Positions 2,081 through 64,000 of a stretch of DNA of 64,000 bases are shown in pieces (within the stretch, counting starts at the first letter, position 1; each line of letters begins with the position of its first letter). The position numbers and the translations under genes are program-made. The stretch covers positions 3,167,001 to 3,231,000 of the forward strand of contig CP099839.1 in assembly GCA_030062745.1 (NCBI GenBank), given 5' to 3'. Source of the DNA: Capitulum mitella. Taxonomy: Eukaryota; Arthropoda; Thecostraca; Pollicipedomorpha; Pollicipedidae. The notes beneath the pieces were generated by a model that made no database searches, was not told the DNA's origin, and worked only from the letters and a program-made list of their open reading frames with translations.

Positions 2081-3803
2081 CCTGCGCTGTGACTGTTCAC
2101 ATTAAGGGGGGGGGGGGCTGGCTGACGGTTGTCGTGGCTAAGTTCGTTTCATCCCGGGATTTAGAGGAAACGTCGAGTGGCTTAGGTGTAGCCATTAATA
2201 ACTGAAAGCGCCCGGTCTGGGAGGTACACATACATAATATAGCTTCATAAGTCATAAGCGTATCTGTTCGTTTGTGCGTACAGCTTGGCCTGCGTGTGCG
2301 TACATGTTATACCGGGTGTTTATTTTTTCTTCATGGGATGCGGTGTCGTGACAGTTCACACGTCTCTGTTGCTGAGTTCACACGCAACTGTCGCCGGCCC
2401 GGAAGCGTTCATGGCTGTCAGTGCAGAGCTGGTGTGGACGACTGGTGCTCACTGTTCACAGCTGTCAGTATGAGGCTGGTATAGACGGCTAATAGAGCGT
2501 GGTGGTACGTAATGCCAGATAGTCTCGTCTCGAGTGCTTCGAACCTGACGAAGCGCACCGAGGAGGCTGGAGACGCTGGCGTTCGTCTTTACCGTTCAGT
2601 AGATTGGCAGCAGTGTCTTCACTGTAGCGTCCAGCCGTCGCAACGAAGAGACACACGTCTTAAAAAAAACTTTTTATGGGCACGTGGGAAATCGACGTGG
2701 CAAACGGCAGCTGACTGACGAGGCCTGCCACGCGCACTTCTCTTGAGCAAATTGTTTTCGGTGGGCCATCCTCCTACTGTTAATAGAACAACTAGCTGTT
2801 CCATGTTACAGCTTTAAGTACGTTACGCTGCCGGAGAGTTTTTGCTTACCCTCATCTTTGGATTGAAGATTCATGACATGCCCCAAGTTTTTGATGAAAC
2901 CTATGCCCCGTGATAAATGATTCTTAAATGATTCATAAAAGTCTCATAGCGGTTTTTCATAAGGGTCACTTGGGCACCGGGTGATGAGTGCGGCCATGCC
3001 ATAATAGTTGGAAGTTTGGTGGGAAGTCGTTTTTACGAAGGGGAGTTTTTGTGTAGATCGGATTGAGAACGTTTCATATCACTTATGGTCATGGAAGATA
3101 TGTTCGCATAAGAAATAAGCAGCGTGCTTCAAACAGTCAAACCAGATCAGTCCAGGTCCAGGTCATGGCCAGAGCCAAGAACCAGATCACCTTGATATTT
3201 ATGAAAATCTGACTTAAGAGAAATGCTGCATATGCCATGTTTGTTAACGTGATATGTACCATGTCAGTTGATGTATTTTGCTTGCATCACTTTATATGCA
3301 CACAGTCCTCTTTGATATGTCATGGCATGACATGACATGGCATGTCGAAGTCTGAAGACCCATTGACTGAGTTTTTGGCATAAAAAGAACGTAGAAAAAA
3401 TGTACCCTTGTAGTGTGTTGTTTCTGGGTCTCCTTTTGCATTAGAAAATCAAGGGTTTTTCATGATCCCCATCCAGCCCGGCGAAGCCTGTTTGCGTTTT
3501 ACTGCGAGTATATATGTTGCGAAAGTAGCATGCTTATTGGTTGGATAATGACATTCGATCTCTGTCCATGGCTGTAGTATGTCACCGACAACAGATGCCT
3601 AGACACACCGATATGTGTGTTGGCATCTGTATCAAATCAGCGTCTGTTTCTCGCTCCATTGCCCTAGGAATAGTGCGCCATGGGCGTCAGCGCACAACGA
3701 AGTCTCCAGGGCGCGTGGTCTCCTGTTTTCACGCAGCGCCATCACCGTCAACGGCCGCCACTTGGCGGACAATCGAGTGACTGGTTCTCGTCCTGGCCCA
3801 CAG

Positions 3804-8617: not shown

Positions 8618-11600
8618 CTAGAGATGGGTGGTGACGACTGAGGCGTTCTCCTCTGTCTCCCGGTCCTGCGGGTCTTCTGGCCGGGGCTCTGCACGGCCGG
8701 TCCCGTCCTCTGGGAGCGCCGACGGGCCTCCGTCCGGTCGGCCGTGCGGGCTCCGACCGGCAGCACCCTCAGCCGGCTCCTGGTCGGCCGCGCGCCACCT
8801 GGGCGGCGGGAACAGGGCGGCCATGCTGGAGGTCCAGCTGGTCACGAGGCGCAGTATCCACGCTCGAACGCTTCAGGTCTTCACGCCGGAATTTTGCTGA
8901 ATCCAACTCCGCCCGAATGAAAATGGTTTTTTTCAAGCCATCCGACAATTAGAAATGTTGACGTCAAAGCTGATTTTAGAACGTTAGCCTGTTGCCATCA
9001 AAGTCAAGTAACTGCTGATACGTAGACATCCAATCTCGTGCCACTCATCGCGAACTGTGTGCGTCTGTGTGTATGGGGGAGGGGGTGATAAGAGTCTCAG
9101 GACACTCCGACAGCTGGGGCATATGGCGCTCGTCATCACAAATTGCGAATCCACGAATCGAATAAATCGGAGAATATTGCTACCTCTCTATACCGTCCAT
9201 GCTGAAGGTTGCGAAGATGAAGACTCCCTGTAGCGTGTTCAGGATGACGAAGACGTACTGCAGCGGCTGGAAGTCGAACCAGCCCGCGGCCAAGCCGACC
9301 ACCCAAGACAGGCCCATGATCGCAGCCAGCCAGGAGGAGACCCGGAGAGTTTTCTGAAACGGCATAACATGGCGAGTAACACATGTAACGTCGAAGCCGA
9401 TGTAGGCATTCAGCGGTACCAATGTAGCTACGATTCATCTCCGTGACCTAGTTACAACACCATCCCTCAGGAAACATCATACACAACAAAATGAGAACGA
9501 TACGAACTCCGCGGCACTGCAGTGCGGGGTCACTGACCCGGGGCCGGCTTCTGGACGAGCGCGCTGTCGCAGAGGTCGACGCCTGGATCAACCTCGCGCT
9601 GGCCACGAACAGCACCACGTTCACGGCCATGGTGGCGGCCAGGGGCGCGGCGAAAAACGCCACCAGCGCCCGGCGCCGACTGAACCAGCAGACTCGCTCG
9701 CCGAAGCCGGGCCGGTACTGGTCCGGCACGGCCGGGGACGTGTCGGCCACCACGGCCGCCACGCCCGCGGCCGTGGTCGCCGTGCAGGCGTACAGGGCGT
9801 ACAGGGCGAACCGCTTCAGGCGATGTCCGCCGGAGACGCGGAGAGACGTGCTCGCCCTCCTGGGAGACGCGGATAGAATGGTGACGGGTCAGAGTCTCCG
9901 TCTGCTGACTCGTAATGCCCGAGTATCGTCGACTGAATAGGCCTCCTCGCCAGTTTCCGACGGACTTTCAACGGCATTGAAACAGTGCGTGTGCAGAAGA
10001 AACCAGAACAGAGTGAGAACAACATCAGACTAGATTACTTTGATTTATGTAAGAGACGGGCCACTTCCGCACTGAGAGCACTTCGTGCACGTGGTGTAGC
10101 AATGCGGCGCGGAAAACAGAAGTAATAGCAGTGCAGATAACGCACGTCCACCACTTCTCATTGATAGGTGTACGAGCCAATTCAGCAGGTAGAGTGGCAG
10201 CACTACCACCTTTAAAATGTTTTAACATAAGCCCTATTGTGTTGTATGGAGACAAATGACCTCAGAATGGTTCTCTACCAACTTTAAAACGAACCCACGC
10301 ACACATTCACATTGAGTACCTTGCGATTCTGAAGACGTCGTAAGCCAGGACATTCATCCAGAAGAGGGATCCCATCATGGAGAAGTACGTGACGGCGGCA
10401 AGCAACGCACAGCCGCGAGCGCCCGGCTCCTGAGATGGCGACACCAGGAAGCAGAGGTAGCCAATCAGCAGGCAGACGGTCAGTGACGTCATACTCTTCC
10501 CGGGCGGGTTCCTTAGTTCTGGCACGGCCATGACGGCCACCAGGTGCAACAGCAGACACAGCACTGACGCCACCAGACACACCAGCGAAATGTACGAGAG
10601 GGCGCCGTCGAACTTGCTGAGGTCCTCCGTCACGGCACAGACGACAAGCTCGCCATCGCGCAGCTCGAACTCTCCAACCGTGTATGTGAGGTCATGCACG
10701 GGCACATATACGGTACCATTTTCCACTGTTACATACTCAAAATCTGTGTAAAAATGTTTGGGACAGAAGGCAAAGCTGGCATGGCTGGTGCCATTCGATG
10801 TTTGGTTTCTTTTGTTCAGAACGTCGCTGCTAACCACGGCATCGCCGCACGACCCATCTGGGAGTCTAAAGCGCCGTGCACCACACACCACGTCTCGGCA
10901 CCTCTTGAAAAAAGGATCCCAGAGTTGTGAGCTGGAGCACGCGTTGCCTGGGCCGGTCTGGTCGCCACCGAATCGGTGCGTGATGCGCACATGGAGGAAG
11001 ACCGAAACCTCTGGTTCATAATCAGTAAAATCTGGCCACAAGCAGTCCATTGACACATAGTTGCAAATGGCGCAATGCACGTTTCGATAGCGGACTAAGT
11101 CACCGGCTGCCTCAGACGACGCCGTGATGTAAGCATTGTACGCACCACACAGCTCTTCAATTTCGGGCTCTGTCCAGTTCGGTGCGCAGCTACTGATTTT
11201 TTGTTCGCAAGGTCGCAACAGATAGTCAAGAGTCTTCGGAAAGTAAAACCCGACGTTACATTCATGGAAGGTCTCATTATCGCCGTCGAGCAAATACACG
11301 CCCCACTGTCCGGCGCTGTTACGCACAAGGTTTTTCTCGATAAACGCGCTGGTGATGTTGAGCTCGTACTGCATATCCGCCGTGATGGACTCGCAGTCGA
11401 CGCCGGAGGTCCAGGGGACGGAGCCCCGGGCGTCCTCGTGGCAGACGGCGCAGTAGACGTTGCCGTAGGTCATCCTGCTGACGCGGTTGCTGACGGGCAG
11501 GCCCGCGAACGGGTCCTCGGCTCCGTCGCCGGAGCACAGCCGCCGTACGGAGTCGTCTCCCCAGCGGTCTGGGCACCGCGTCACCATGTACACCGACCGC

Positions 11601-11980
11601 TCGTAGGCCGGGATGTCCCGGCAGCTGAGGTCGCCGCGGGCGGCGGCCGGCGCCGCCACGTCCAGGCAGCAGTCGCCGTACACGCCGCACTCACGATCGC
11701 ACGAGCACCGGCCACTGCCCCAGAAAATCGACCGGCACCTGCTGCCGCCGCTGAGCGTCAGGTTCCGCGAGGCGAGGTCGGCCTCGACGCGCGCCAGCAG
11801 TCGGGCGTTGTCGCGAGTCGCGCGGTCCGTGGCGCGGTCCGCCGACCCAGAGCCGGTGCCGAGCAGCAGCAGCACGGCCACCGCCGCCGCTCTGGCTGCG
11901 GACGGCGCGGCGGCCGGCCCCGGCGCTGTCACGGAGACGGCCGTCGCCGCCGACCGGCACGGCCGCCGCCGGCCGGCCAT
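8618..11980 (-). CDS. Methuselah-like family B GPCR with somatomedin-B-like ectodomain module (copy A, intact)
   Basis: Minus-strand exons are 11980-10320, 9859-9538, 9353-9184 and 8870-8618, totalling 2406 nt or 801 residues. All introns are GT-AG and the phases agree. I start at ATG 11980 because a hydrophobic signal segment (about residues 29-46) follows it. Residues about 82-105 hold the somatomedin-B pattern CSCDRECGVYGDCCLD. A long Cys-rich ectodomain with several N-x-S/T sites follows, then the Mth-type pre-TM segment (NGTVYVPVHDLTY...FELRDGELVVC). Seven helices lie near 461-485, 498-515, 523-550, 571-592, 618-644, 669-689 and 690-712. Conserved cysteines are present at the start of TM3 and in the second extracellular loop. 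The tail is Pro/Glu/Arg-rich and cytoplasmic. No GPS autoproteolysis motif is seen, so it is Mth-like rather than a true adhesion GPCR. The ligand is unknown. It is a plasma-membrane receptor that could signal through G proteins. Confidence 0.92.
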
Positions 11981-46001: not shown

Positions 46002-47156
46002 TTAACCCGCCCGCGGCTGGACGAACAAACGCAGCTCCACGAAACTTTGTGTACTTTTTGCTTGACTATTTTTACATCTTGTTTCGAATTTCTACCTCAG
46101 TTAAAGCCAGGTATCTGACCTAGATTAGGTCGAATTGACCTATGCCCAAAATCGTTTAGCGCCCTGTAACATTTTCGGAAGACATGATCCCACGATAAAA
46201 TTTTCAGTCATGAGAGCTCATGATAAATGCAGTAAATCTGCCATCTCGGATTTTCCGGAAATTCCCGGGTCACGTAAGGTCAAGCCTTTTCTCAGCACAT
46301 GTCGACCTTTTTCGGCAATTGACGGATTTTAATAATTTGAGTGTGGGGAGATGAAGACATCCAGTTTCCGTTAATGGGCGAAGTTTCATTGACTCCAACC
46401 ACTGACCTGAGGCAGGTCGCGAACAACTGTTATGAGCTAAAATGCACTGCCTTCAAAACCGGCGATGAATGACTCAGATCAGGTAGAAAATGACAGGACT
46501 GACTCGCACAGTTGCAAATGATACCGAAAAGTTCAAAAAGTCTGAAAATCTCATATTTTGGAAATAAACAGGTTCTCGCGAATAAAACTCCGCCAGTTGC
46601 GTGGACTGGCAATAACGAACTTTTCAACATTTAAACATGGGAAGCTATCAGATGAACCACTAGGATCAAGAAACAACACTTTGAAAGGCTTATTTCGCGA
46701 AAATAAAGAAAACCTAGCATTATTTCCCGTTAATCTGATATCGGTTCGCCCACAGCACCCGTAGTGCAGCAGTACGAAAATCGCGGTGTGTTTAACTCAA
46801 CGTTCCGGCGTATATATTACACTACTCAGGGAAATTAAACGTGTTTCGGCGTATGAGGACTTTCACATGTCCGCTGGTGCCTTTACCTAGACCTTATTAG
46901 TCACAGTCCTTGAGATCCAAGTCGTTTCTTGGTCTCGTGCAGTCGGCCATGAGAAAACATATATATGGCTTAAATGGCTTATATAGTATCCAAAACTAAA
47001 AATGAGACCAGTTTCGAGCTCTACTCATCACGAGCTCCCCAACGGCGTGCTTATTCTTATCGTGCGATCAACCATCCGTCAGTTAGAGGGGGCGGCCAAC
47101 CGCAGCCACCCCCCCGTCGGGCGCCCATGGCCCGACTGCCAGGCGGGCGCGGGTAA
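46002..47156 (+). mobile_element. Family A TTAA element, copy 4, internally deleted
   Basis: It begins TTAACCCGCCCGCGGCTGG (46002) and ends GGCGCGGG-TAA (47156, TTAA decayed). Compared with other copies it lacks the 5' G-run palindrome. Non-coding. Confidence 0.7.
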
Positions 47157-47779
47157 TTATATAAAATAAATCAATAATAAAATAAACAATGAAATAAAAA
47201 GCGCGGGTCAAAAAAGGCCTAAGGGGTATGTTCGGTCTATTCGCGGATTCGCCTCATTTATGGGATTCAATACATACCTCCCGCGAAGGTCTAAGTCCAT
47301 TGTAGCATGATTACCTGATAGTGAACCTGATGGCGAGGAGGACTGACGTCAAGATGAATGTTATACGCGATATTTTTCGGTATCGGGGACTCAGCGGTAT
47401 TTATTAACAATTCGTAGCTGAAGTAATTTTGGTTGCCGGAGACTGTGAGTATGCAGAGACGTTCTATAGTCTTTGCCCACGAGGCAATGTTTGACAGTTG
47501 ACACAGACGCAATATTTCGAGGTAGGACATGTTTCTTCAGTTCGGTTGGTCATTTTGATACTGCACACCGGACGTGGTGCGCAAGAACTGAAATGGAACA
47601 TCCTCTTACCCTGACTGATGTGGCCGAGGGATGTCCATAATGACATGCATAAGCCCGGCATGCTCTCACGTCATGCTGTGGAGAAGAATTAATGACAGCC
47701 ATACCCTTGGTTTCTGAGAAACATGGGTTTTGACGCCACATGTGAGTGCCTGTATTGTTCTGCCTTTTAACCAGCCTGA

Positions 47780-47980
47780 CTTGGCTGTCAAAATACCGGT
47801 CGGGGGCCCGGACGGCCGGGTCCCCGGGCCCCTCTGGGCTGCGCCTGTGCTGCCATCTCTTGGCCCAAAAGCCCCATTCGCGCGCGGACGCCGCCGCTTC
47901 AAGGCGTCCGGCCGGAGACCGCCGTGCCGCCTGCATCTCTACAGCCAATCAGGAGCCACGTCCAGCCTGACGTAATAGCT
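47780..47980. promoter_or_regulatory. GC-rich island with CCAAT and CRE-like sites
   Basis: A CpG-rich block of about 200 bp with AGCCAATCAGG at 47941-47951 and TGACGTAA near 47968-47975. Open frames exist on both strands, but no splice site or similarity decides between them. It could be an orphan promoter or first exon. Confidence 0.3.
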
Positions 47981-48770
47981 AATGAGAGGAAGGCCGTCGG
48001 GTCGTCGGGTGCGCCAGTAATGGCCACGCAGCGTGGGTTGCTGCCGAGGTGCGGACGACAGGCCGGTTCACTGAGAATTCAGAGGTAATTCATAGGCTGT
48101 GCTAATCGTTTCTAAACCTCATCCAGCTCATTCGGTAAGCCGACAGCTCATGTCAGCTTACCGAACTCCGACTGAAGTTTTTTGTATGATGTATCAGGAC
48201 GCTGTATTTTACATCACATTCTGTCATGGGCGCGGGGACCATAGGAGGTTGAAAGGATGGTGCACGGGGTCGGTAATCCTTTAGAAGTGCAAATTTAGGG
48301 CGGAATTCCCATATGACCCTTCCTTTTATTTGAAGAGTCACGAAGTGCAACCAGCGACGGCAGAAGGGGGGGGGGGCAGGAGGGGCGGTCGCCCCCCAGT
48401 CTGACGCGTGGGGGGAGGCAAAGCTATGTTTCCTCCCCAGAAATTTCGTTCACCGCACCAAGCAAAACCGCAAAAATCAGCCTTACGCTATTAAAAAAAA
48501 ACGTGGGAGCATCGCAGACAGACGATAATAATAGTGCAAATCCGAAGATCTTTTCAGATATGGTAGTCATTAAATTTCATGGCACTCGGCGCCTACAGAT
48601 ATAAAAGGGATACACTGTTTTTATATATCTATGTCCCTTCTTTGTCTATGCTCGGCGCCCATTACAAGACGCGACGATTCTGACGATGATTTCACAAGTC
48701 TGCGCTGCAGCCTTTTGCACCAAGCGTGACGTCAATAGGAAGAAATATAACTGTTTTTGTGAACAATAAT

Positions 48771-49968
48771 CCGCCCCCGATTGGGGGGCAATTGATCGCT
48801 CCCCTGAGGTTTTCTGGGACTGCAAGAAAATGAATTAACACACAGCCACGAAACCTTGTGTACCCTTTGCTTTATTATTTTTACACCTTGTGTCAAAGTT
48901 TTGAGCTCAGGTCAAGTCAGGTGCTTGACCTAGGTCAGATCAACAGGACCTATGTCCAAAAAAGTTTAGCGCCCTGTAACTTTTTGCAGAACAAGGTATC
49001 ACAATAATACTTTCAGAGATTAGTGATCTTGATAGATGCAACAATGCTGTTATCTCAGATTTTTCGGAATTTTCCGGGTCATTGACCTAAGGTCAAGCCC
49101 ATTTTTAAGACATGTTGTTTTTCGGAAATTGACGGAATATGTCATAACATTTTTAGTGTGGAATGAAGTAGACATCTAGTCATCGTCATTAGGCGAAGTA
49201 TCAATGACTTCCAGCCATTGACCTGAGGTCAGGTCACGAATAACTGTAGTGAGCCAAAATGTACCACCGTCAAAATCAGGGATGAATTGCTCAGAATGGA
49301 TAGAAAATGGCAGAACTGGCTTGCACAGACGTAAGTAATACCAGCAACCTCAAAAAGTTTTAAAAAATTGCATATTTTAGAAATAAACAGGCTCTCACGA
49401 ACAAAGCTTCGCCAATTTTGTAGGTTGGTAACTAATGAATTTTTCGAAAATTTAAGCATGAAAAACCATCACAAGAACCACTGAGATCAATAAAATTTAC
49501 ATGAATAGACTTTTTCGCGAAAATAAAATAAGTTCCCGTTAATTTCTTACTCCGTACGGCTGCGGCGCACGCCGATAGCCGGCGCGAAAACTGCCGTGTC
49601 TTTAACTCAACGTTTCGGCGCACATATTGAACAAATCCGAGAAATGAGATGTGTATCGGCATTTGCGGACCTTTACTTGTGCGCTGGTGTCTTTACCTAT
49701 GCGTTATTAGTCACGGCCCTTGAGATTCAGGCCGTTTCTCGGTGTCATGCAGTCGGCTATGAAAAATCATATGTAGAGCGTAAATGGCGTACATATTATC
49801 TAAAACTAAAAAGTGAGACCGGTTTCGAGCCCTACTCTTCACAAGGTTTCCAACGGTGTGCTTATTTTTATCGTGCGACCAACCAGTCGTGAGTTAGAGG
49901 GGGCGGCCAACTGCCCCCCCCCCCAATCGGGCATGATCGTAACCGACCGACGATGGTGCGCGGGTTAA
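48771..49968 (+). mobile_element. Family A TTAA element, copy 5
   Basis: It begins CCGCCCCCGATTGGGG (left TTAA not preserved) and ends GGTGCGCGGG-TTAA (49965-49968). It is collinear with copies 1 and 2. Non-coding. Confidence 0.75.
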
Positions 49969-53739: not shown

Positions 53740-55180
53740 AATGCACGTCCGTTAACTTGGCACACATATTCATATTCGTATTCAGCACGCACCACAGATT
53801 TTGCCCATAGTACGTCATTTGGTCAATTTTCCCATGCCATTCCCAAATATGAAATTCTTTCTCCTCTAAGTTTGACCATTTGACCTCTAGAGGTCAGAAT
53901 GGGAGCAAACATAGCAGTCGACCTATGACATCAACCTTTACAAATGAGGCATCAAGCCAAAGAGGGGAGCCGTCCGCAACTTTGACGACTCAAAAGGTCA
54001 AAGTCAAGGTCCTTCGTCAAGGTCCAGATCAAGGCCAAAGGATGGCGATAAACAAAACCGCCGACCTATGACATCATATCGTCCAAATGAGCTGTCACAT
54101 CAAAGACGGGAACCACAGGGGCAGCTGACGGGTGGTCTGGAGAGCCCGGGCACCCCTTTAGGCCAAGCATTTTTTGTGAAAACCATTGCACATTATCTTC
54201 TCAGCAAGCGGTCTCCGCAAGACTTCAATTCACACTGAGCTTCCCCCTCCCCCAGAGAATCCTTGCTGCGCCCCTGAGGGGAACCGCAAGGTCCGTAGCT
54301 TTGACGACCCAAAAGGTCAAGGTCAAGGTCAAGGGCCGTCGTAAAGAACCTAATCCGGGTCAAAGGACGTAGACAAACTTAGCGGTCGAAATACGACATC
54401 AGACGACAAGTTTGATCTCAGACCAAAAATGGGAACCATCCGCATTTAACGACCCATAACATCAATGTTATGGTCCGTCGTTAGGGTCATAATCAAGGTC
54501 AAAGGATGGAGGCAAGTGCAGCCGCTGACCTATGGCACCTAACTGTACAAATGAGATACCAGACCAAAAAGGGGAACCGTCCGCAGCTTTGATGATCCAA
54601 ATAGTCAAGGTCACAATCAAGGTCAGAGGACGGGGACAAGCACAGCCGCCGATCTATGGCACCAAATTGTACAACTGAGATATCACACCACCGAAGGCAG
54701 CTGTCCGCAGTTTCGACAACACAAAAGATCAAGGTCAAGGTCTGTCGTAAAAATCCTAATCAAGGTCGGAGGAGGGGGACAAGCATAGTCGTTGGCCTAC
54801 GTCACCAAACTATACAAATAAGGTATGACACCAAAGGCGGGAACCATGTTCAGTTTTGAAGACTTAAAAAGTTAAAGTCAAGGTCTGTCGTAAACATTGC
54901 AATGAATGTCAAAGGATCGGGACAAGCAAAGCCGCCGACCTATAGCACCAAACTTTACAAATGAGCCATCACGCCAAAGGGGGAACCATCCGCAACTTTG
55001 GTGCTGACCAGTGGCACCAAAATGTATAAATGACGTGCCACATCAAAAGGGAACAGTCCACAGCTTTGACAGCCCAAAAGGTCAAGGTCAGGTTACGTTG
55101 TCAAGGTCCTGAGCTAGATTTAAGGACGGGGACAAACATAGTCACCAACCTCTGACACCAAGCTTTACAAATGAGTCAGG
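53740..55180 (-). repeat. Left half of the head-to-head satellite, ~143-bp units
   Basis: Outer flank 53740-53850 (TTAACTTGGCACACATATTC...) is followed by about eight units containing CCGCAACTTTGACGACCCAAAAGGTCAAGGTC, TACAAATGAG and GCCGACCTATG. Orientation flips to the reverse complement at about 55165-55195. A small hAT-like MITE interrupts it at 54116-54276. Confidence 0.85.
54116..54276. mobile_element. 161-bp hAT-like MITE inside the satellite
   Basis: It starts CAGGGGCAGC and ends GCTGCGCCCCTG. The interior (TTTTTTGTGAAAACCATT...CACTGAGCTTCCCC) matches 21165-21265. It breaks an otherwise continuous satellite unit and so inserted after array formation. Confidence 0.65.
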
Positions 55181-55189
55181 AAACCAAGC

Positions 55190-56950
55190 AGACGACCTTG
55201 ATTATGACCCTCACGACGGGCCTTGACCTTGACATTTTGGGGTCGCCAAAATTGCGGACAGTTCCCCTCTATAATGTGATAGCTCAATGGTACAGTTTGG
55301 GGCCATAGTTCGACGGTTATGTTTTTTCCCGTCCATTGATCTTGATTAGGATCTTGACGACGGACCTTGACTTTGGCGTTTTGTGTTGTCAGAGTTGCGG
55401 GTGACTTTCCTCTCTGGTGTGACACCTTCTTTGAATGGTTTTGTGTCGTAGGTCTGCAGCAATGTTTTTTTCCAATCCGTTGACTTTAATTATGACCTTG
55501 ACGACAGAGCCTGACCTTGATGTCACGCGGACTATTTTGTTCTTTGGTTTGATGCCTCCTTTGTACAGTTTGGTGCCATAGGTTGTCGGCTATGTTTGTC
55601 CCCATCTTTTGGCCTTAATTAGGACCTTGACGACGGATCGTGACCTTGACCAGTGAGGTCGTCAAGGTTGCGGATAGTTCCACGGTTTGGTGCGATAGTT
55701 CATTCGTGCAAACTTGGGTCGTCGGCTATGCTTGTCCCCATTATTTGGTCTTGATTACGACCGTGACGAACGATGGACGTTGACCTTGACCCTTTGCTGA
55801 CGTTGACCTTGACCCTTTGCTTTGACAACCCAAAGTTGCGGACTTTTCTCCTCCATGGTACGTTACCCTATTTGTACAGTTTGGTGCAGGTCGGCGACTC
55901 TACGTGTCTCCGTCCTTTGGTTTTGATTAGGACCTTGACCTTGACCTTCTGGGTCACCAGAGTTGCGGACGGTTTCCCTGTTTGGTTTGGTACGTCATTT
56001 ATACAATTAGGTGTGGTAGGTCGGTGGCTTTGCGTGTCCCCGTCCTTCGACCTTGATGAGGACCTTGACAATGGACCTTGGCCTTGACCTTTTGGGTCAC
56101 CAAAGTTGCGGACGGTTTTCCTGTTTGGTGTGATACCTCATTGGTATACTTTGGTGCTATAGGTCGGCGGCTGTGCTTGTTGTTACACTTTCACCTTGAT
56201 TATGACCTTGAAGGCGAATTTTGACCTTGATTTTATTGGTCGTGAAAACTGTGGACGGCTCCCCTCTTTGGTCTGATGCCTTATTTGTACAGTTTGGTGT
56301 CATAGGTCGGCGGTTATCCTTGTCTACGTCTTTTGACCATGATTGTGGCCTTGACAACGGACCTTGACCTTGGTCTATCGGGTCGTTTAATTGCGAACGG
56401 TTCTCCTCCTTGGTGCGCTAGCTCATTTGTACAGTTTGGTGCCATAAGTCGGGAACTGTGCTCGGCCCCATCATTTGACCTTGATTTTGGCCACGACGAC
56501 GGACGATGACTTTGGCTTTTTTGGCCGTCAAAGTTGCGGACTATCTTCCTCTGTGGTCTGATACCTCATTTGTACAGTTTGGTGCCATATGTCGGTGGCT
56601 ATGTGTGTCCCCGTCCTTTGACCTTGACTAGGTCCTTGACGGCAGACCTTGACGTTGACCTTTTGGGTCGTCAGAGTTGCGAACGGTTGCCCTCTTTGGC
56701 TTGATGCCTCTTTTATACAGCGTGATGCCATATGTCCACGGTTCTGCTTGTCACCATCGTTGACCTTGAATTTGCGTTATTTGACCTGTGGAGTTCAAAT
56801 GCTCAGACTCAGGGTAGACAGATCTTCAGGTTCGGAAATGGCATAGGCATTTTGACCAAATGGGGTAATTTGAGCAAAACCTGCGATGTATGCTGAATAC
56901 GACTATGAATATGTGTGCCAAGTTAATAGACGTAGATACTGTCTGGTAAG
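55190..56950 (+). repeat. Right half of the head-to-head satellite, ~143-bp units
   Basis: GTTGCGGA-type landmarks near 55250, 55394, 55668, 55835, 55963, 56106, 56250, 56392, 56532 and 56677 are mostly spaced 128-167 bp, typically 140-145. Each unit has the order GACCTTGACC, TTTTGGGTCG, GTTGCGGACGGTT, TGTACAGTTTGGTGCCATAGGTCGG (partly varying). The outer flank 56830-56950 is the reverse complement of 53740-53850. Open frames here are repeat artefacts. Confidence 0.85.
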
Positions 56951-58795
56951 GAACGTAAAAACAAAATCGCTGTCTGGTGCATGAAGTTACGATTTGGTTG
57001 TTCCAGCAAAAGCAGCCTCCAAAGGTGTCTGCTCTCATAAACCGATTTGCACGTACTCAGGGAGTTTCATTTCTGATGCGGTCACATGAGGTCAGTCTAG
57101 CTCAAGTGAGCCACCGCTTGTAGCTCACGAACCAATGGAAGTATGAAAGCGGTAACAACGATAAGAAATTTGTCGCAATACCTTTGCCGAAGAAACACGT
57201 TTTAATCTTCGGTCGATGCAAAGTTAGGTCAGATCTGGTCACGCCATTTGAAGTAAAATGGTGCATGAATGTCAGCAGAGGCATTCGCTCATAGATCGCA
57301 AGAAGTGAATGGGAAAGTAGCATCGGCGGATCCAAACCATGTGCTGATGTGCGAAGGGAGGGGAGGGGTAAATGTCCACCCGTGTTACCTAAGCTACCCC
57401 AGATGTTCATTTTTGCTCTGATTTCGGCCACTTTATTAGGCGGCTTGCGAAAATTAACAAGTGCATTGGCGATTTTTTGAACGAAATATATGCAATTTCC
57501 ATTCGACAAGACATGTCGACCCCGGGTTTTCCAACGTAAGGGGGGCTATGGCCCCGATGTCCGCTGTCCCGGATCTGCGCAGGAAGTTCGTTGCATTCCC
57601 GTTTTGCCCTTTTCTCCGCTCCGTCATGTAAATCAGTTGGCTTCGTATGAAGTCAGCGACCTTTTGCTCAAAACTACGCTTTGTCCTTCAGCAAGGTGAA
57701 TAGGTAGTTTTTGGCGCTCCTACGATACAATAAAGCGACGTACCAAGCGTAATTTCCGGCGGAATGACCAATGCCGAATGACGAAAAACAGCACTTTAGC
57801 AAGGTCTACCTAGATTCATGCCTACAAAGTCCCGAAAATCGAGAATATACCTTTCTTAATGGACGAACTGCAGACCAGCCTAACGTCTTGTCTTATTTCA
57901 TCGACAGGCAAATTGATAAAATCTAATATAATTGATATAATCTAAAATCGATCTGCATGATCCGTGTATAACATGGACTTGAATGAAGCATAAAAGTGTC
58001 GACTTATGTCGTAAAAAGACTACGTATGTCGACAGTAGTTTTTATGCCTTCGTCATTTAGGCTAATTTCACCCCATTGAACAAGGCATAACGCTGAAATC
58101 TAATTCCACGGACGAAGGCATACCAGTTAATGCCTAACGATATGGTTTTTATGATATAACGCGGCCCATATATTCAAGTATACTCCAAAAACTTAGTCGA
58201 TAAGAATCTAAGGAGCGTGCTACTACGAAATTGCGTGCCATGTTTTTGTTAGGAAAAATAAAACCTGATTGAAATATTTCCACCGTGAAAAACGAAGCAG
58301 TTCAAAACCGCTGTGAAATTCTTATCGTGGGGGACATGGCTGGAGATTTGCGAAAACTACTGGTGGCCCACATAGGATTTCAGAACGTTTTTTTCAGTCA
58401 TTGTCATCGGCCTAATTTGGAAATTCCTGGATATTAGAGGGGAAAGAGGGTCCGGATTTCCCTTCCCCCGGGATCGCCAGCCATGACAGGAAGGGTGAAT
58501 TGTCAGGCAGTGTCGTGAGACTTATCAATCGTTTTCTCAAAACAGGACTTGCCGTATCGTGTTGCTGCCTCTGACATGCAGCCTATTCAGAATTTTCCAA
58601 ACAGCGGTCAGCAGGCATGTTTACAAGCTGTTAACGTTTGGCGACTATGGGCATGACTTCGCCTTGTCTACTAAAACTGTGATGTTTGGTAAGAGCACAC
58701 GTCCTGCGTGTCCAGCTGCATGCCTGGCTGGAACTAAGTCGTCGTGACGGCCCGTGGTCCCTGCGGGCCCCGCACTGTGTCGTGTGTCGCGTGGT
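56951..58795. other. No gene seen; MITE fragment
   Basis: 57330-57440 is related in reverse complement to the hAT-like MITE at 12877-13124 (shared AATAAAGTGGCCGAA and GGATCCGCC). The remainder is AT-rich and without a supported exon. Confidence 0.45.
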
Positions 58796-59047
58796 GTACT
58801 GCGGTTTGGCCCGGTGACCCGCTCGTGTCTGCCCGCATCAGGAAGCTGCCGGTGGGCGGGCCGGGCGTCGCCCGACGCAAGAGGTCGTCCCTCATCCGTA
58901 GTGACGTCACTGGCCGGGAGGAGACCGACCGGACGTCGCCGAGCCCGGCCCGAGACAGGGTGGTGAGGAGCGGCACACCGCAGCCGCAGCCTCTGCGGCC
59001 GGCGGGTGTTGAGCGAGACGTCTGCTGACAGCACGGGGCCCGCTCCG

Positions 59048-62000
59048 ATGGCCGGCCGGCGGCGGCCGTGCCGGTCGGCGGCGACGGCCGTCTCCGTGAC
59101 AGCGCCGGGGCCGGCCGCCGCGCCGTCCGCAGCCAGAGCGGCGGCGGTGGCCGTGCTGCTGCTGCTCGGCACCGGCTCTGGGTCGGCGGACCGCGCCACG
59201 GACCGCGCGGCTCACGACAACGCCCGACTGCTGGCGCGCGTCGAGGCCGACCTCGCCTCGCGGAACCTCAGAGTCCTCGATGGGCACCGATGCCAGAAGA
59301 TCACGTGGGAGTTCAACCTGTGCTCGTGCGACCGCGAGTGCGCGGTCTACGACGAGTGTTGTCTGGACATAGTACCCCTGGATCCACCCCGCGATGACTT
59401 GCAGTGCCGCACGATCGATTTTGAGGACCGGTACGTGGTGTCGCGCTGCCCTGTCCGGTGGCAGGACGACGCTGTGCGCGCGCTGTGTGCCCGACCGGCT
59501 CCGCTGTCCGAAGACCCCTTTGCTGGTCTTCCGGTCACGAATCCTGTTAGCAGAATGACCTACAGCAATTATTACTGCGCCATTTGCCACGAAGACCTTT
59601 CGGGAGCCATTTTTTGGACCGCTGAGTTGTATTGCCCTAACTTGTCGGAGGGTTTTCGGGACGCCTTGAAAGTTGCTCGCAGATCTGTCGAGGACGTCCT
59701 GTTTCAGACGAGTGACAAGCAGTGGGTGCTGGAAAACGGCCGAGGATGGTCAAACGTCACGCTATGATTGCGCTATTGACTATCTGCCTCCGGATGAAGT
59801 GCTGTACTTACTGCGACCTTGCAAGCTCATGGTGTCCACCTGTGCAGCGAATTGGACCGACGCCGACGTCGAGGAACTGTGTAGCTCCTACAATGCCTAC
59901 ATTTGGGACTTTGACGACATCCTCTACCGCAACGTTCATTGTGCTGTATGCAACTTCGTGTCACTGGACAACATCATGTACGAGGAACCCTCAATACCTA
60001 CTCGACCGGTGCCCGTGCCCGCTATTTTCTTGCTGGACGTTACGGATCGGTCCGGAAGTGACCAAGTGGGCATCGTCAACGCATGCTCCAGCTCACAGCT
60101 CTGGGACCCCTTCTTCAGGAAGTGTCGAGACGTTGTGTGTGATGCTCGAAACTCTCAGCTTGTGGATGGTGCCTGCGTTGGAACTGGTGAAAGCGTTTTT
60201 ACCTCCTTCTCTGAGTCGGCAGCCTTTGATGGAAGCAACGCCAGCAGCTTCCACCTCTGTCCAAAATATTTCTTGAACGTGTCCGAATACGAGACGCTCA
60301 AAAATGGTTCCGTGTACGTACCCGAATATGATCTCACTTACGCTCTCGGAGAATTTGAGCTTCGTGATGGCGAGCTTGTGGTATGTGCCCTGACGGAGGA
60401 CCTTAGCAAGTTCGACAGCACCCTCTCGTACATTTCGCTGGTGTGTCTGGTGGCGTCAGTGCTGTGTCTGCTGCTGCACCTGGTGGCATTCTGTGCCGTG
60501 CCTGAGCTCAGAAACCTGCCCGGGAAGAGTATGACGTCACTGGCCGTCTGCCTGCTGATTGGCTACCTCTGCTTCCTGGTGTCGCCATCTCAGGAGCCGG
60601 GCGCTCGCGGCTGTGCGTTGCTTGCCGCCGTCACGTACTTCTCCATGATGGGATCCCTCTTCTGGATGAACGCCATGGCCTACGACGTCTTCACTGCCCT
60701 CAGGCGAGCTCTCACATAATCAGAAGCAATGGCCTTTTGCATTATTCCAGTAACACATCCATTTCAAAGCGTCTCCCGTCCCTGGGTCCTGATGACATGC
60801 GGGTTGTCCCCGTCCTTCAGTGCTGACCCCTTCACCGACGTGGGCGTGTCATGACTTCACCTCGAACCGTCGCTCCCGAGAGAGCAAAGCTGTGCTCAGG
60901 TGACGCAACACTTCTCTTGATCAACTTAGAATCGGACGGGAAACGAGGGCAACCCGCACTCCATCGGGATGCAGGCACATGTCTGGTCTCCGACATTCAT
61001 TTGTTTACGATCCGATATTTAACATCAGTGATGCGCGCGCCTTGCCATAATAGCTGTCATTTTCAGAAAGCATCTCCTGGCAGATCTGGTATTTTGCGCA
61101 CGTCAAAGCACGTCGGAGTTGCATCTTGCATCCGCGCCTCCTGAGTTCTCGTGGCAACTTTGCATCAATCGTTTGCTTTGCCTCGATGGAACAGCATGGT
61201 GCCGTTCGTAGGTCTAAAAATTGTACTCGTTTCATTAACATATGCACATTTCTTACTCCTGTAAGGTTGTCTCCTGCAAAGCTGGGTAGTCGTTACTGAA
61301 TTTACCTCGAATCGTGTTGCGTCAGAATTTTGTTTTCATTGCAGATTCCGACTCGAGTTCATGGAGAATCGGACCTCGCTGACGTCACGCTATTTCCGCG
61401 TCTCCCAGGAGGGCGAGCACGTCTCTCCGCGTCTCCAGCGGACGTCGCCTGAAGCGGTTCGCCCTGTACGCCCTGTACGCCTGCACGGCGACCACGGCCG
61501 CGGGCGTGGCGGCCGTGGTGGCCGACTCGTCCCCGGCCGTGCCGGACCACTACCGGCCTGGCTTCGGCGAGCGAGTCTGCTGGTTCAGTCGGCGCCGGGC
61601 GCTGGTGGCGTTTTTCGCCGCGCCCCTGGCCGTCATCATGGCGGCGAACGTGGTGCTGTTCGTGGCCAGCGCGAGGTTGATCCAGGCGTCGACCTCTGCG
61701 ACAGCGCGCTCGTCCAGAAGCCGGCCCCGGGTCAGTGGCTCGAAATTTAGATTGCTGTCGTTTAGGTGTGCGTGTAATGTTTTCAAGGGGATGTGCCACA
61801 ATAACGTGCGGGGTACAAATCGGAGCTGCCTTAACGCCGTTGATTGCCCACATCAGTTTTAATGTAGATGTCAAAGACAGTATGAGTGGTATAGATGAAT
61901 GTATGAATGGTATGAATGTGAATGGTATGCAAGACAATTTGAATGGTACAGATATGCGCCGTTCATATTGTTTTAGATACCATCCGCACCATTCACGTTG

Positions 62001-62448
62001 TCTTTGATACTTTTGCAATATTCAATGTGTTATGCCGTTTCAGAAAAATCTCCGGGTGTACTCTCGGCTGGCGGTGATTATGGGCCTGTCCTGGGTGGTC
62101 GGCTTGGCGGCGGGCTGGCTCGACTTCCAGCCGCTGCAGTACGTCTTCGTCATCCTGAACACGCTGCAAGGAGTCTTCATATTCGCGTCCTTCAGCCTCA
62201 ACGGCAGCACAAGGGCGTGGATACTGCGCCTCGTGACCAGCTGGACCTCCAGCATGGCCGCCCTGTTCCCGCCGCCCAGGTGGCGCGCGTCCGACCAGGA
62301 GCCGGCTGAGGGTGCTGCCGGTCGGAGCCCGCACGGCCGACCGGACGGCGGTCCGGCGGGGCTCCCAGAGGACGGGCCCGGCCGTGCAGAGCCCCAGCCA
62401 GAAGACCCGCAGGACCGGGAGGCAGAGGAGGAAATTACCAGGCTATAG
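59048..62448 (+). pseudogene. Methuselah-like GPCR, copy B, frameshifted
   Basis: Exons are 59048-60703, 61409-61730 and 62044-62448; they sum to 2383 nt, one base over a multiple of three. After NGRGWSNVTL the frame hits TGA at 59765-59767, and the continuation (YDCAIDYLPPDEVLYLLRPC) lies in another frame, with no room for an intron. So there is a 1-base insertion or 2-base deletion, or a sequencing error. As it stands, translation yields 239 residues: signal peptide, somatomedin-B-like module (CSCDRECAVYDECCLD) and part of the ectodomain, with no membrane helix. The rest keeps all seven helices and an otherwise open frame, so decay is recent or the product is a soluble fragment. Intron 1 has a GC donor (CAG|GCGAGC) exactly where copy A has AG|GTACTC. 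The exon corresponding to exons 3 and 4 of copy A is fused here. AATAAA lies at 63264-63269. Confidence 0.82.
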
Positions 62449-63394
62449 CTCACCACGTGGTCTGCCACAGGAGAGCGCTGCAAAACGGCGCTGTCTGCAG
62501 GTGACAGCGAAGTCGCTTGTTTCAAAACATACGCGACTCCGGGCGCAGCAATCGTTTGACTCTGTTCCTCCGGGAGCATTAGTTTTTTCGCTGGACTGAG
62601 CTTCATCTGAGGGTCGTTTCATTGGCTGCCGTTGAATGAAATGGTGCGTGCGAAGTGACGGGCAAAGGGCGGCACGAAATCCGTTTATAGCTAGATTAGG
62701 TGTTGCAATGCCGTTTTATGCTGTCAGACAAAGGACATCGCTTGACGCATTCCCACTGCCTGCGCAGCTTTTGAAGAAAATCCAGTACGTTGGGCAGACT
62801 GTAAGGAAACAGCTTTTTGGGACCTGCAGAAATAATCGTTTGTTTGGCTCAAACCATGCATTTTCGGCAAAACTCACCGTGGTTGAAATGTGGTGGAGTG
62901 GCAGGAGTGAAGGTATACGTACGCGCAGATGATGTTTACGGCACCTTATGTTTTTTTCGGAAAGGTTGAGAGGGGCGATCTACCAAGAATGCCAACCCTC
63001 TCGAATTCAATAAGCGTCGCATGGTCACTGTGCACTCTAAAATCGTTCCCGTTCATCGGCGCCATAGGTTGGAATGCAGTGTTGCTGTTTTGTTGTCGGA
63101 TGCATTGCACGTTGTTTATGAACATGTCCTTCCGTCCGTTTAGAAGATCGCTGAGAGTAACATTTCATGTCATAATGGTCTTTTGAATGCAGTTTGATAT
63201 CTTGGACACAAGTGTCACACAGAGACACGCCGAATGCATGTAACTGAAGAATGTCGATGGGATAATAAAGCTAAAATGGAACTTGCGTTCGTGACGGTTG
63301 GAACGAAGCTAGCTAGAAGAGTCACAATCTCTAAAAACCATGCACACAAAGCCATTCCCCCTTGCACCACATACGCAATGATCTGTCGGCGGTA
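62449..63394 (+). other. 3' flank of GPCR copy B, no similarity to copy A flank seen
   Basis: It contains an AATAAA at 63264-63269 but no supported gene. A minus-strand 88-codon frame (63483 to 63215) with two hydrophobic stretches overlaps its end; I give it little weight. Confidence 0.35.
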
Positions 63395-63575
63395 GCTCAG
63401 TATAGCGTTAACCAGGAGCGCGGCGCAGCCCGCCACAATAACGGAACGACTGCAGGCATCCGAAATAAGGATGTCCGCCATAGAACAGCCCACGGGACGA
63501 CGGTGGGGCCGGCCCGGTGCCGACCGCGTCTTCAAACTCCGATCACAATCACGAAGCGTTTATGTCGTTAACCCC

Positions 63576-64000
63576 GTCGCCAGCGCGCAGATGTGATTGC
63601 ATTTCACGCCGGCCCTCAAAGTCTTGTAACTGCATTGCAAGCGCTCTTACCATTGGTATGACATCTTGACGCGTGGTCGGCATAACTTTCTAAACTTGTG
63701 CCAGGGCCGGAAGGGGAAAAACTTTGGCGGTCTTTTGAATATGTGTTGAAGTGGTAACATTTTCATAAACGCGGTTGCAGTGAACGCAACGCATGGCAAC
63801 TTGATTGCGGAGTTTGGAATATACGTGGATTTTATGAGTTTGATGCTATAAAAGCCCAAAGGTTTCGACATATCTTGATAAGTATTCGTGACTGCGATCA
63901 GTGATTAGCAATCGCCTGGCAGTGATTGATGCCACTGACGAAAACCTATCAGGTTATGCCAGAATATTTTGGGTTTTCATAACACTAAACCCGCTTTACC
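63576..64000. other. No gene seen
   Basis: Sequence beyond the duplication edge. It does not continue the similarity to the OSBP side, and no exon is apparent. Confidence 0.4.

Follow-up and report, generated by a model that had tools for sequence, protein, structure and literature searches.

How did two receptor genes come to be nearly identical at both ends and strongly diverged in between? The question arose in a 64,000-nucleotide stretch of the Capitulum mitella genome (the window), where a first-pass annotation had noticed such a pair. Receptor A lies on the plus strand. Its exon 1 (59048..60703), identified from open reading frames, alignment and Pfam, encodes a signal region, a cysteine-rich ectodomain with a somatomedin-B-like segment, and TM1-TM3. 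Exon 2 (61409..61730) encodes the middle of the 7TM region, and its splice sites and phase are those of gene B and of the paralogs C14a, C14b and C13 described below. Exon 3 (62044..62448), from open frames and alignment, encodes the last TMs and the C-tail, stop included. The partner of A is the minus-strand gene B (11980-8618), which is ~47 kb away, inverted and head-to-head. Its exon 1 (10320..11980) is an open frame supported by the frame list and by alignment; exon 2 (9538..9859), the 5' part of exon 3 with the last TMs (9194..9353) and a C-tail segment ~331 bases from the preceding part (8618..8862) were placed on the same strand by alignment. In start, phase and length, exon 2 of A and B agrees with that of the three paralogs elsewhere in the genome. 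The donor after A exon 1 is of GC type, at 60704 (AG/GCGAGC; CAG/GCGAG). A GC-type exon 1 donor was also seen in C14a (position 3151 of the C14a locus sequence), and B and C14b have GT. The annotation had placed the mosaic at 59048..60703. The pattern is found there, but these coordinates cover exon 1 only, and it runs on through exons 2 and 3.

We used Pfam to place the two genes in a receptor family. The 7tm_2 model (secretin-type 7TM) matched B at 62.1 bits and the second frame piece of A exon 1 at 26.2 bits, both above the curated cut-off of 20.6; the best-matching solved chains for B were adhesion receptors. Somatomedin B (PF01033) scored 22.7 bits in B, just under the curated cut-off of 23.1, and 20.8 bits in A, also below it, and a vitronectin chain matched B at E = 0.05. 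Neither a GPS or GAIN family nor a Methuselah N-terminal domain was among the Pfam matches up to E = 1 for B and the two A pieces. Judged by these matches, A and B are somatomedin-B-like plus secretin-type (class B/adhesion-type) 7TM receptors, with TM numbering taken from the 7TM match. The somatomedin-B-bearing adhesion-type 7TM receptors of amphioxus have the same order, a somatomedin-B-like segment followed by a class B/adhesion-type 7TM region, in the available part of their description (PMC2246102). Unlike those receptors, A and B had no GPS or GAIN match; the likeness is one of domain order. For B exon 1, a structure predicted from an alignment of six rows had a mean pLDDT of 38.5 and was not used.

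At the protein level the mosaic was clear. The annotation had reported two differences in the first 74 residues and a sharp divergence of the ectodomain from residue 75 onward with the cysteines kept. Both statements were borne out: A-B identity was 72/74 over residues 1-74 and 153/336 in the ectodomain core (alignment columns 76-467), and of the 25 cysteine columns from residue 75 up to TM1, 24 were common to A and B, the same 24 columns being cysteine in 5/5 aligned paralogs. Similarity was also said to return from the pre-TM segment. This holds for the protein (24/29), but the synonymous sites of that segment are saturated (dS 1.5) and nucleotide identity returns only from ~60366. Describing the 7TM region as nearly identical was slightly generous for the TM1-TM3 end of exon 1 (92/103, or 89%); in exon 2, counted on the alignment, only 7 of 107 residues differed.

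A family background was available from the same genome. With B exon 1 as query, a protein search of the whole genome gave ten matches, namely two pieces of A, B, three loci with identities of 48, 46 and 42%, and four weaker matches. The three loci were named C14a, C14b and C13 after their contigs, and the four weaker matches were left out. DNA searches with the TM1-3 part and with exon 2 each found six places; the former included one weak match in a gene that by eye is latrophilin-like, and the latter included a partial copy, C14c. In C14c, ~230 kb from C14a, we saw exons 2 and 3 with a stop inside exon 2, and exon 1 was not seen within the 10 kb examined.

We calculated dS and dN per segment from NG86 counts with the Jukes-Cantor correction. 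Between A and B, dS was 0.014 in the first 74 codons, 1.82 (saturated) in the core, 1.52 in the pre-TM segment, 0.14 in TM1-3, 0.022 in exon 2, 0.33 in the exon 3 start and 0.10 in the tail. Between A and C14a it was 1.25 in the first 74 codons, 1.62 in the core, saturated in the pre-TM segment, 0.67 in TM1-3, 0.75 in exon 2 and 0.84 in the exon 3 start, the tails being too unlike for comparison. Counted at degenerate codons with the residue kept, silent differences between A and B numbered 1/71 in the first 74 codons, 75/146 in the core, 11/24 in the pre-TM segment, 9/87 in TM1-3, 2/98 in exon 2, 10/42 in the exon 3 start and 3/62 in the tail. Fisher tests separated the first 74 codons (1/71) from core plus pre-TM (86/170) at P = 6e-16, and TM1-3 from core plus pre-TM at P = 5e-11. 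This mosaic of synonymous divergence is a direct observation. By the measure of its silent sites, the core is apparently of about the age of the split from the paralogs on other contigs; both ends are young.

A permutation test of silent codons on the concatenated exons gave the same picture. The longest run of A=B identity, 70 silent codons in columns 2-74, had P = 5e-5. The next three runs had P = 0.0007, 0.0017 and 0.006, and two more were not significant; the second-best run (columns 594-663) crosses the junction of exons 1 and 2 and is not physically contiguous. When only family-variable silent codons were used, three of the six longest runs reached P < 0.05 (P = 0.0002, again spanning the junction; 0.0014, at the N-terminus; and 0.013), and the other three were not significant.

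The dS profile bears on two explanations that dispense with conversion. If A and B were recent duplicates, diversifying selection on the ligand-binding ectodomain alone could be proposed, and core dN was high (0.47). Three 30-codon core windows had dN/dS near 1 (0.96, 0.99 and 1.12, on dS of ~0.9-1.1), with other windows of that size too saturated in dS for a ratio. However, selection at the protein level does not raise dS, and the dS profile therefore refutes it as the sole cause. That is, because core dS was saturated (1.8), as in older paralog pairs, and mean core dN/dS was 0.26, selection alone was not the main cause, and we give it almost no weight. On average the core would instead be under purifying selection, although single sites may have been selected. 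The annotation had offered conversion of the ends or diversifying selection of the middle, to be told apart by windowed synonymous and non-synonymous divergence. That comparison showed very low dS at the ends, a saturated middle and no uniformity along the gene; it favored conversion, and the selection half of the proposal did not stand. Alternatively, constraint at the nucleotide level, through overlapping antisense frames, RNA structure or codon selection, might have held the ends alike in old duplicates. The GC-rich ends are in fact overlapped by long antisense open frames. Against this, dS between A and C14a in the same segments was 0.67-1.25, which shows that this family tolerates change at silent sites, and Rfam at gathering scores had no match in the window. 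We consider such constraint extremely improbable as the explanation. A tRNA scan of the window found none, and Pfam found no match at E 0.01 in 8 other long open frames of the 51 listed.

The pair C14a/C14b served as a control from the same genome. Its segment dS was 0.055-0.34, with silent differences of 3/49 at the N-terminus, 26/354 in core plus pre-TM and 4/87 in TM1-3. There was no contrast between ends and core (Fisher P = 1.0 for the N-terminus and 0.48 for TM1-3, each against core plus pre-TM). In this pair the listed alignments took in all of intron 2 (504 of 504 bases), 1602 of the 4514 bases in intron 1, and, of the flanks, 459 of 1465 bases on the upstream side and 834 of 1219 on the downstream side, mostly at 68-77%. 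The control is imperfect in that most of its intron 1 is also unalignable.

We then compared A and B along the DNA, where five tracts of high identity have breakpoints that can be seen directly. Tract 1 (A 58806..59268, plus strand, paired with B 12222-11760), delimited by HMM segmentation, contains ~240 bases before the ATG and the 74 codons, with 451/463 bases identical; the 5' block is not coding alone, as it begins ~240 bases upstream of the ATG, at 58806. A genome DNA search with this block listed A, B, one weak 72% match over 139 query bases, and nothing else. The diverged core and pre-TM segment, saturated in dS, follows at A 59269..60365 (B 11759-10658). Tract 2 (A 60366..60693, B 10657-10330) consists of pieces at 94% and 97% flanking a 30-base patch at 67%. 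Tract 3 (A 61395..61737, B 9873-9531) covers exon 2 and reaches 14 and 7 bases into the flanking introns, with 334/343 identical. Tract 4 (A 62028..62196, B 9369-9201) is 16 intronic bases and the exon 3 start, 153/169 identical, with dS of 0.33 in its exon part. Tract 5 (A 62215..62430, B 8863-8648) covers the C-tail, with 208/216 identical. The intronic bases in tracts 3 and 4 are all identical between A and B.

Outside the tracts the introns have diverged, which is again observed directly. Over intron 1, 500 bases upstream and ~650 bases downstream, the A-B alignment did not exceed 500 shuffles. At its start (A 61741..61865, against B 9511-9388), intron 2 retains old homology of ~58% (score 27, against 19 for the best shuffle) and gives the unconverted background. 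The strong witness to age is intron 2, with its 58% next to the 97% of exon 2. The unalignable intron 1 is a weaker one, because intron 1 of the control pair decays too. A sensitive search also gave two weak matches. One, upstream, pairs 57365-57566 with 13099-12885 at 63% and by eye resembles an interspersed repeat. The other, downstream, pairs 63384-63579 with 7869-7664 at 71%, in matching order in both genes, and may be a repeat or residual duplication; in the latter case the duplicated stretch was originally longer than the gene. Between the receptors we also saw an array of ~143-base repeats in both orientations (53745-56933), and direct repeat pieces at 46089-49924, ~2810 bases apart and 77-84% alike.

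These non-coding data bear on a further possibility, that the whole gene was duplicated recently and the ectodomain core of one copy was then replaced from a third, divergent paralog. Core replacement would likewise give low-dS ends and a high-dS middle. Moreover, over the first half of the core A and B had no higher protein identity (74/176) than A and C14a (75/178) or B and C14a (81/177); over the second half they did (79/160, against 72/164 and 60/158). Recent duplication predicts, however, that introns and flanks should be about as similar as silent sites, and they were found to be unalignable or at 58%; the diverged intron 2 adjoining a 97% exon 2 argues strongly against replacement. Apart from A, the best relative found in the genome search with B exon 1 had only 48% identity. 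In unrooted nucleotide trees of seven segments, A joined B in 7/7, with support of 92-100, so that A's core was placed with B's core and not with C14 or C13. The A+B path was 0.02-0.15 in four homogenised segments vs 0.71 in the core. Because A joins B in all seven trees, we concluded that A and B form a true, old sister pair. On the intron evidence, these trees and a genome search made with B exon 1, we regard core replacement as very unlikely.

The tract ends lie near exon edges, and conversion through a reverse-transcribed spliced transcript (cDNA) would explain this: tract 3 is exon 2 plus 14 and 7 bases, and tract 4 starts 16 bases before exon 3. However, those 14, 7 and 16 intronic bases are identical, and spliced cDNA would not carry them. 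Some of them belong to the splice signal and could be alike through constraint. Introns that had already diverged would restrict DNA-level tracts to exons anyway. A cDNA intermediate is therefore unlikely in our judgment, and recombination at the DNA level is the probable route.

GC3 followed the tracts. In A it was high in the first 74 codons (0.92), TM1-3 (0.82), exon 2 (0.91) and exon 3 (0.82), and lower in the core (0.57-0.79) and the pre-TM segment (0.41). The values for B were 0.92 (first 74 codons), 0.56-0.90 (core), 0.62 (pre-TM), 0.81 (TM1-3), 0.92 (exon 2) and 0.83 (exon 3). This contrast is plain in the counts. In C14a, C14b and C13, GC3 was 0.79-1.00 throughout. Over 40 windows of 20 codons, GC3 was correlated with A-B third-position identity (Spearman 0.76 for A and 0.42 for B), a correlation that is partly built in and inflated, as GC-rich third positions agree more by chance. 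In C14a, C14b and C13 the same correlation was -0.24 to -0.02 (37-38 windows). Equally GC-rich paralogs nonetheless show high dS to A and B. A GC bias of the conversions would fit these values. On the core side of tract 1, B remains GC-rich and A less so; GC3 thus hints at B as donor of that tract, a direction too weak to claim. Sharp-edged low-dS tracts, the inclusion of non-coding bases and raised GC3 are hallmarks of ectopic conversion, and all three are present here.

We therefore favor, as very probable, the explanation that A and B are old inverted duplicates, that several short events of ectopic gene conversion homogenised their 5' end and their 7TM exons, and that the two ectodomains remain distinct. 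Conversion is here inferred from a single genome. An old pair, ~47 kb apart and inverted, would have diverged first, until most intron and flank sequence could no longer be aligned. Short conversions of differing age would then have transferred the leader and the first 74 codons, which make up the 5' end, and likewise the 7TM and C-tail exons, from one copy onto the other. Because tract dS ranges from 0.014 to 0.33, more than one event would be needed. The ectodomain between the tracts would have escaped recent conversion and retained its old divergence, under purifying selection on average. If both genes yield a product, two different ectodomains, perhaps binding different ligands, would be joined to a signal region and a signalling module that are nearly the same in both.

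Whether both products are made is another matter. A exon 1 contains a frame change of net one base (59731..59767, plus strand), with the break between ~59731 and 59746 and the resulting stop at 59765-59767, on which the annotation was silent. We found no further stop in A's modelled exons. The frame change may reflect a pseudogene or an assembly error. In C14b, too, the frame changes by one base close to the exon 1 end (3150-3210 of the C14b locus sequence), and the frame changes in A and C14b may be real or assembly errors. After its last TM, B has ~331 bases (9193-8863) that are absent from A, C14a, C14b and C13. Their borders could be GT...AG, and if they are unspliced, reading stops four residues on; this insert may be a new intron or a disrupted tail. 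The annotation had spoken of receptor variants sharing a signalling module. That is fair for the sequences, but because A exon 1 carries a frame change, the two may not both be functional receptors.

Selection since the last conversions may also have changed. The four young segments (first 74 codons, TM1-3, exon 2 and tail) have ~19 silent and 39 replacement differences over ~302 and 781 sites, a ratio of ~0.8 vs 0.26 in the core; the numbers are small, and the older exon 3 start is left out. This ratio hints that constraint has relaxed. Polarised by the paralogs, replacement changes on A and B were 0/1 in the first 74 codons, 5/10 in TM1-3, 3/2 in exon 2 and 0/7 in the exon 3 start, with 1, 5, 2 and 3 differences ambiguous. 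Relaxation confined to A was not supported, as B received as many such changes or more. A stronger idea is that of a maintained two-headed receptor, in which recurrent GC-biased conversion keeps a common leader and signalling module while the ectodomains recognise different ligands, as a selected arrangement and not an accident. We consider this unlikely.

The pair resembles systems already described, and the comparisons that follow hold for the available parts of those papers. In clustered protocadherins of fugu and other fish, regional gene conversion homogenises one part of the gene and raises GC3 there, with EC1-EC3 remaining diverse (PMC1852091). A and B are similar in having one part homogenised at raised GC3 and a diverse recognition part. 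The protocadherins, however, are clusters of many cadherin genes whose large variable exons are homogenised at the exon 3' part (PMC1852091), whereas A and B are one inverted pair of 7TM receptor genes whose two ends are alike and whose similarity extends across several introns. Among mammalian paired CEACAM receptors, conversion between paralogs was seen in cumulative synonymous and non-synonymous plots, and inverted clusters (LILR, Siglec) were suggested possibly to ease intrachromosomal conversion (PMC2832619). Gene conversion between receptor paralogs is common to both cases; in CEACAM the ligand-binding end is alike and the signalling ends differ (PMC2832619), the reverse of A and B. For fish LH receptors, a hypothesis of interallelic conversion was argued against (PMC4536197). 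The partially covered literature on receptor-paralog conversion, on exon homogenisation with diverged introns, and on somatomedin B with methuselah contained no account of the A/B pair. The pair is a tidy case of a known process, regional concerted evolution among receptor paralogs, and the process is not new.

What the pair offers is a clean natural case in which near-identical and saturated segments alternate along the exons and introns of two genes, and in which a sister pair of the same genome lacks the contrast. Trees or ages drawn from the 7TM region would make A and B seem recently duplicated, though their ectodomains are old. If both genes are functional, the pair would exemplify, within a class B/adhesion-type 7TM receptor family, common signalling combined with diverging recognition.
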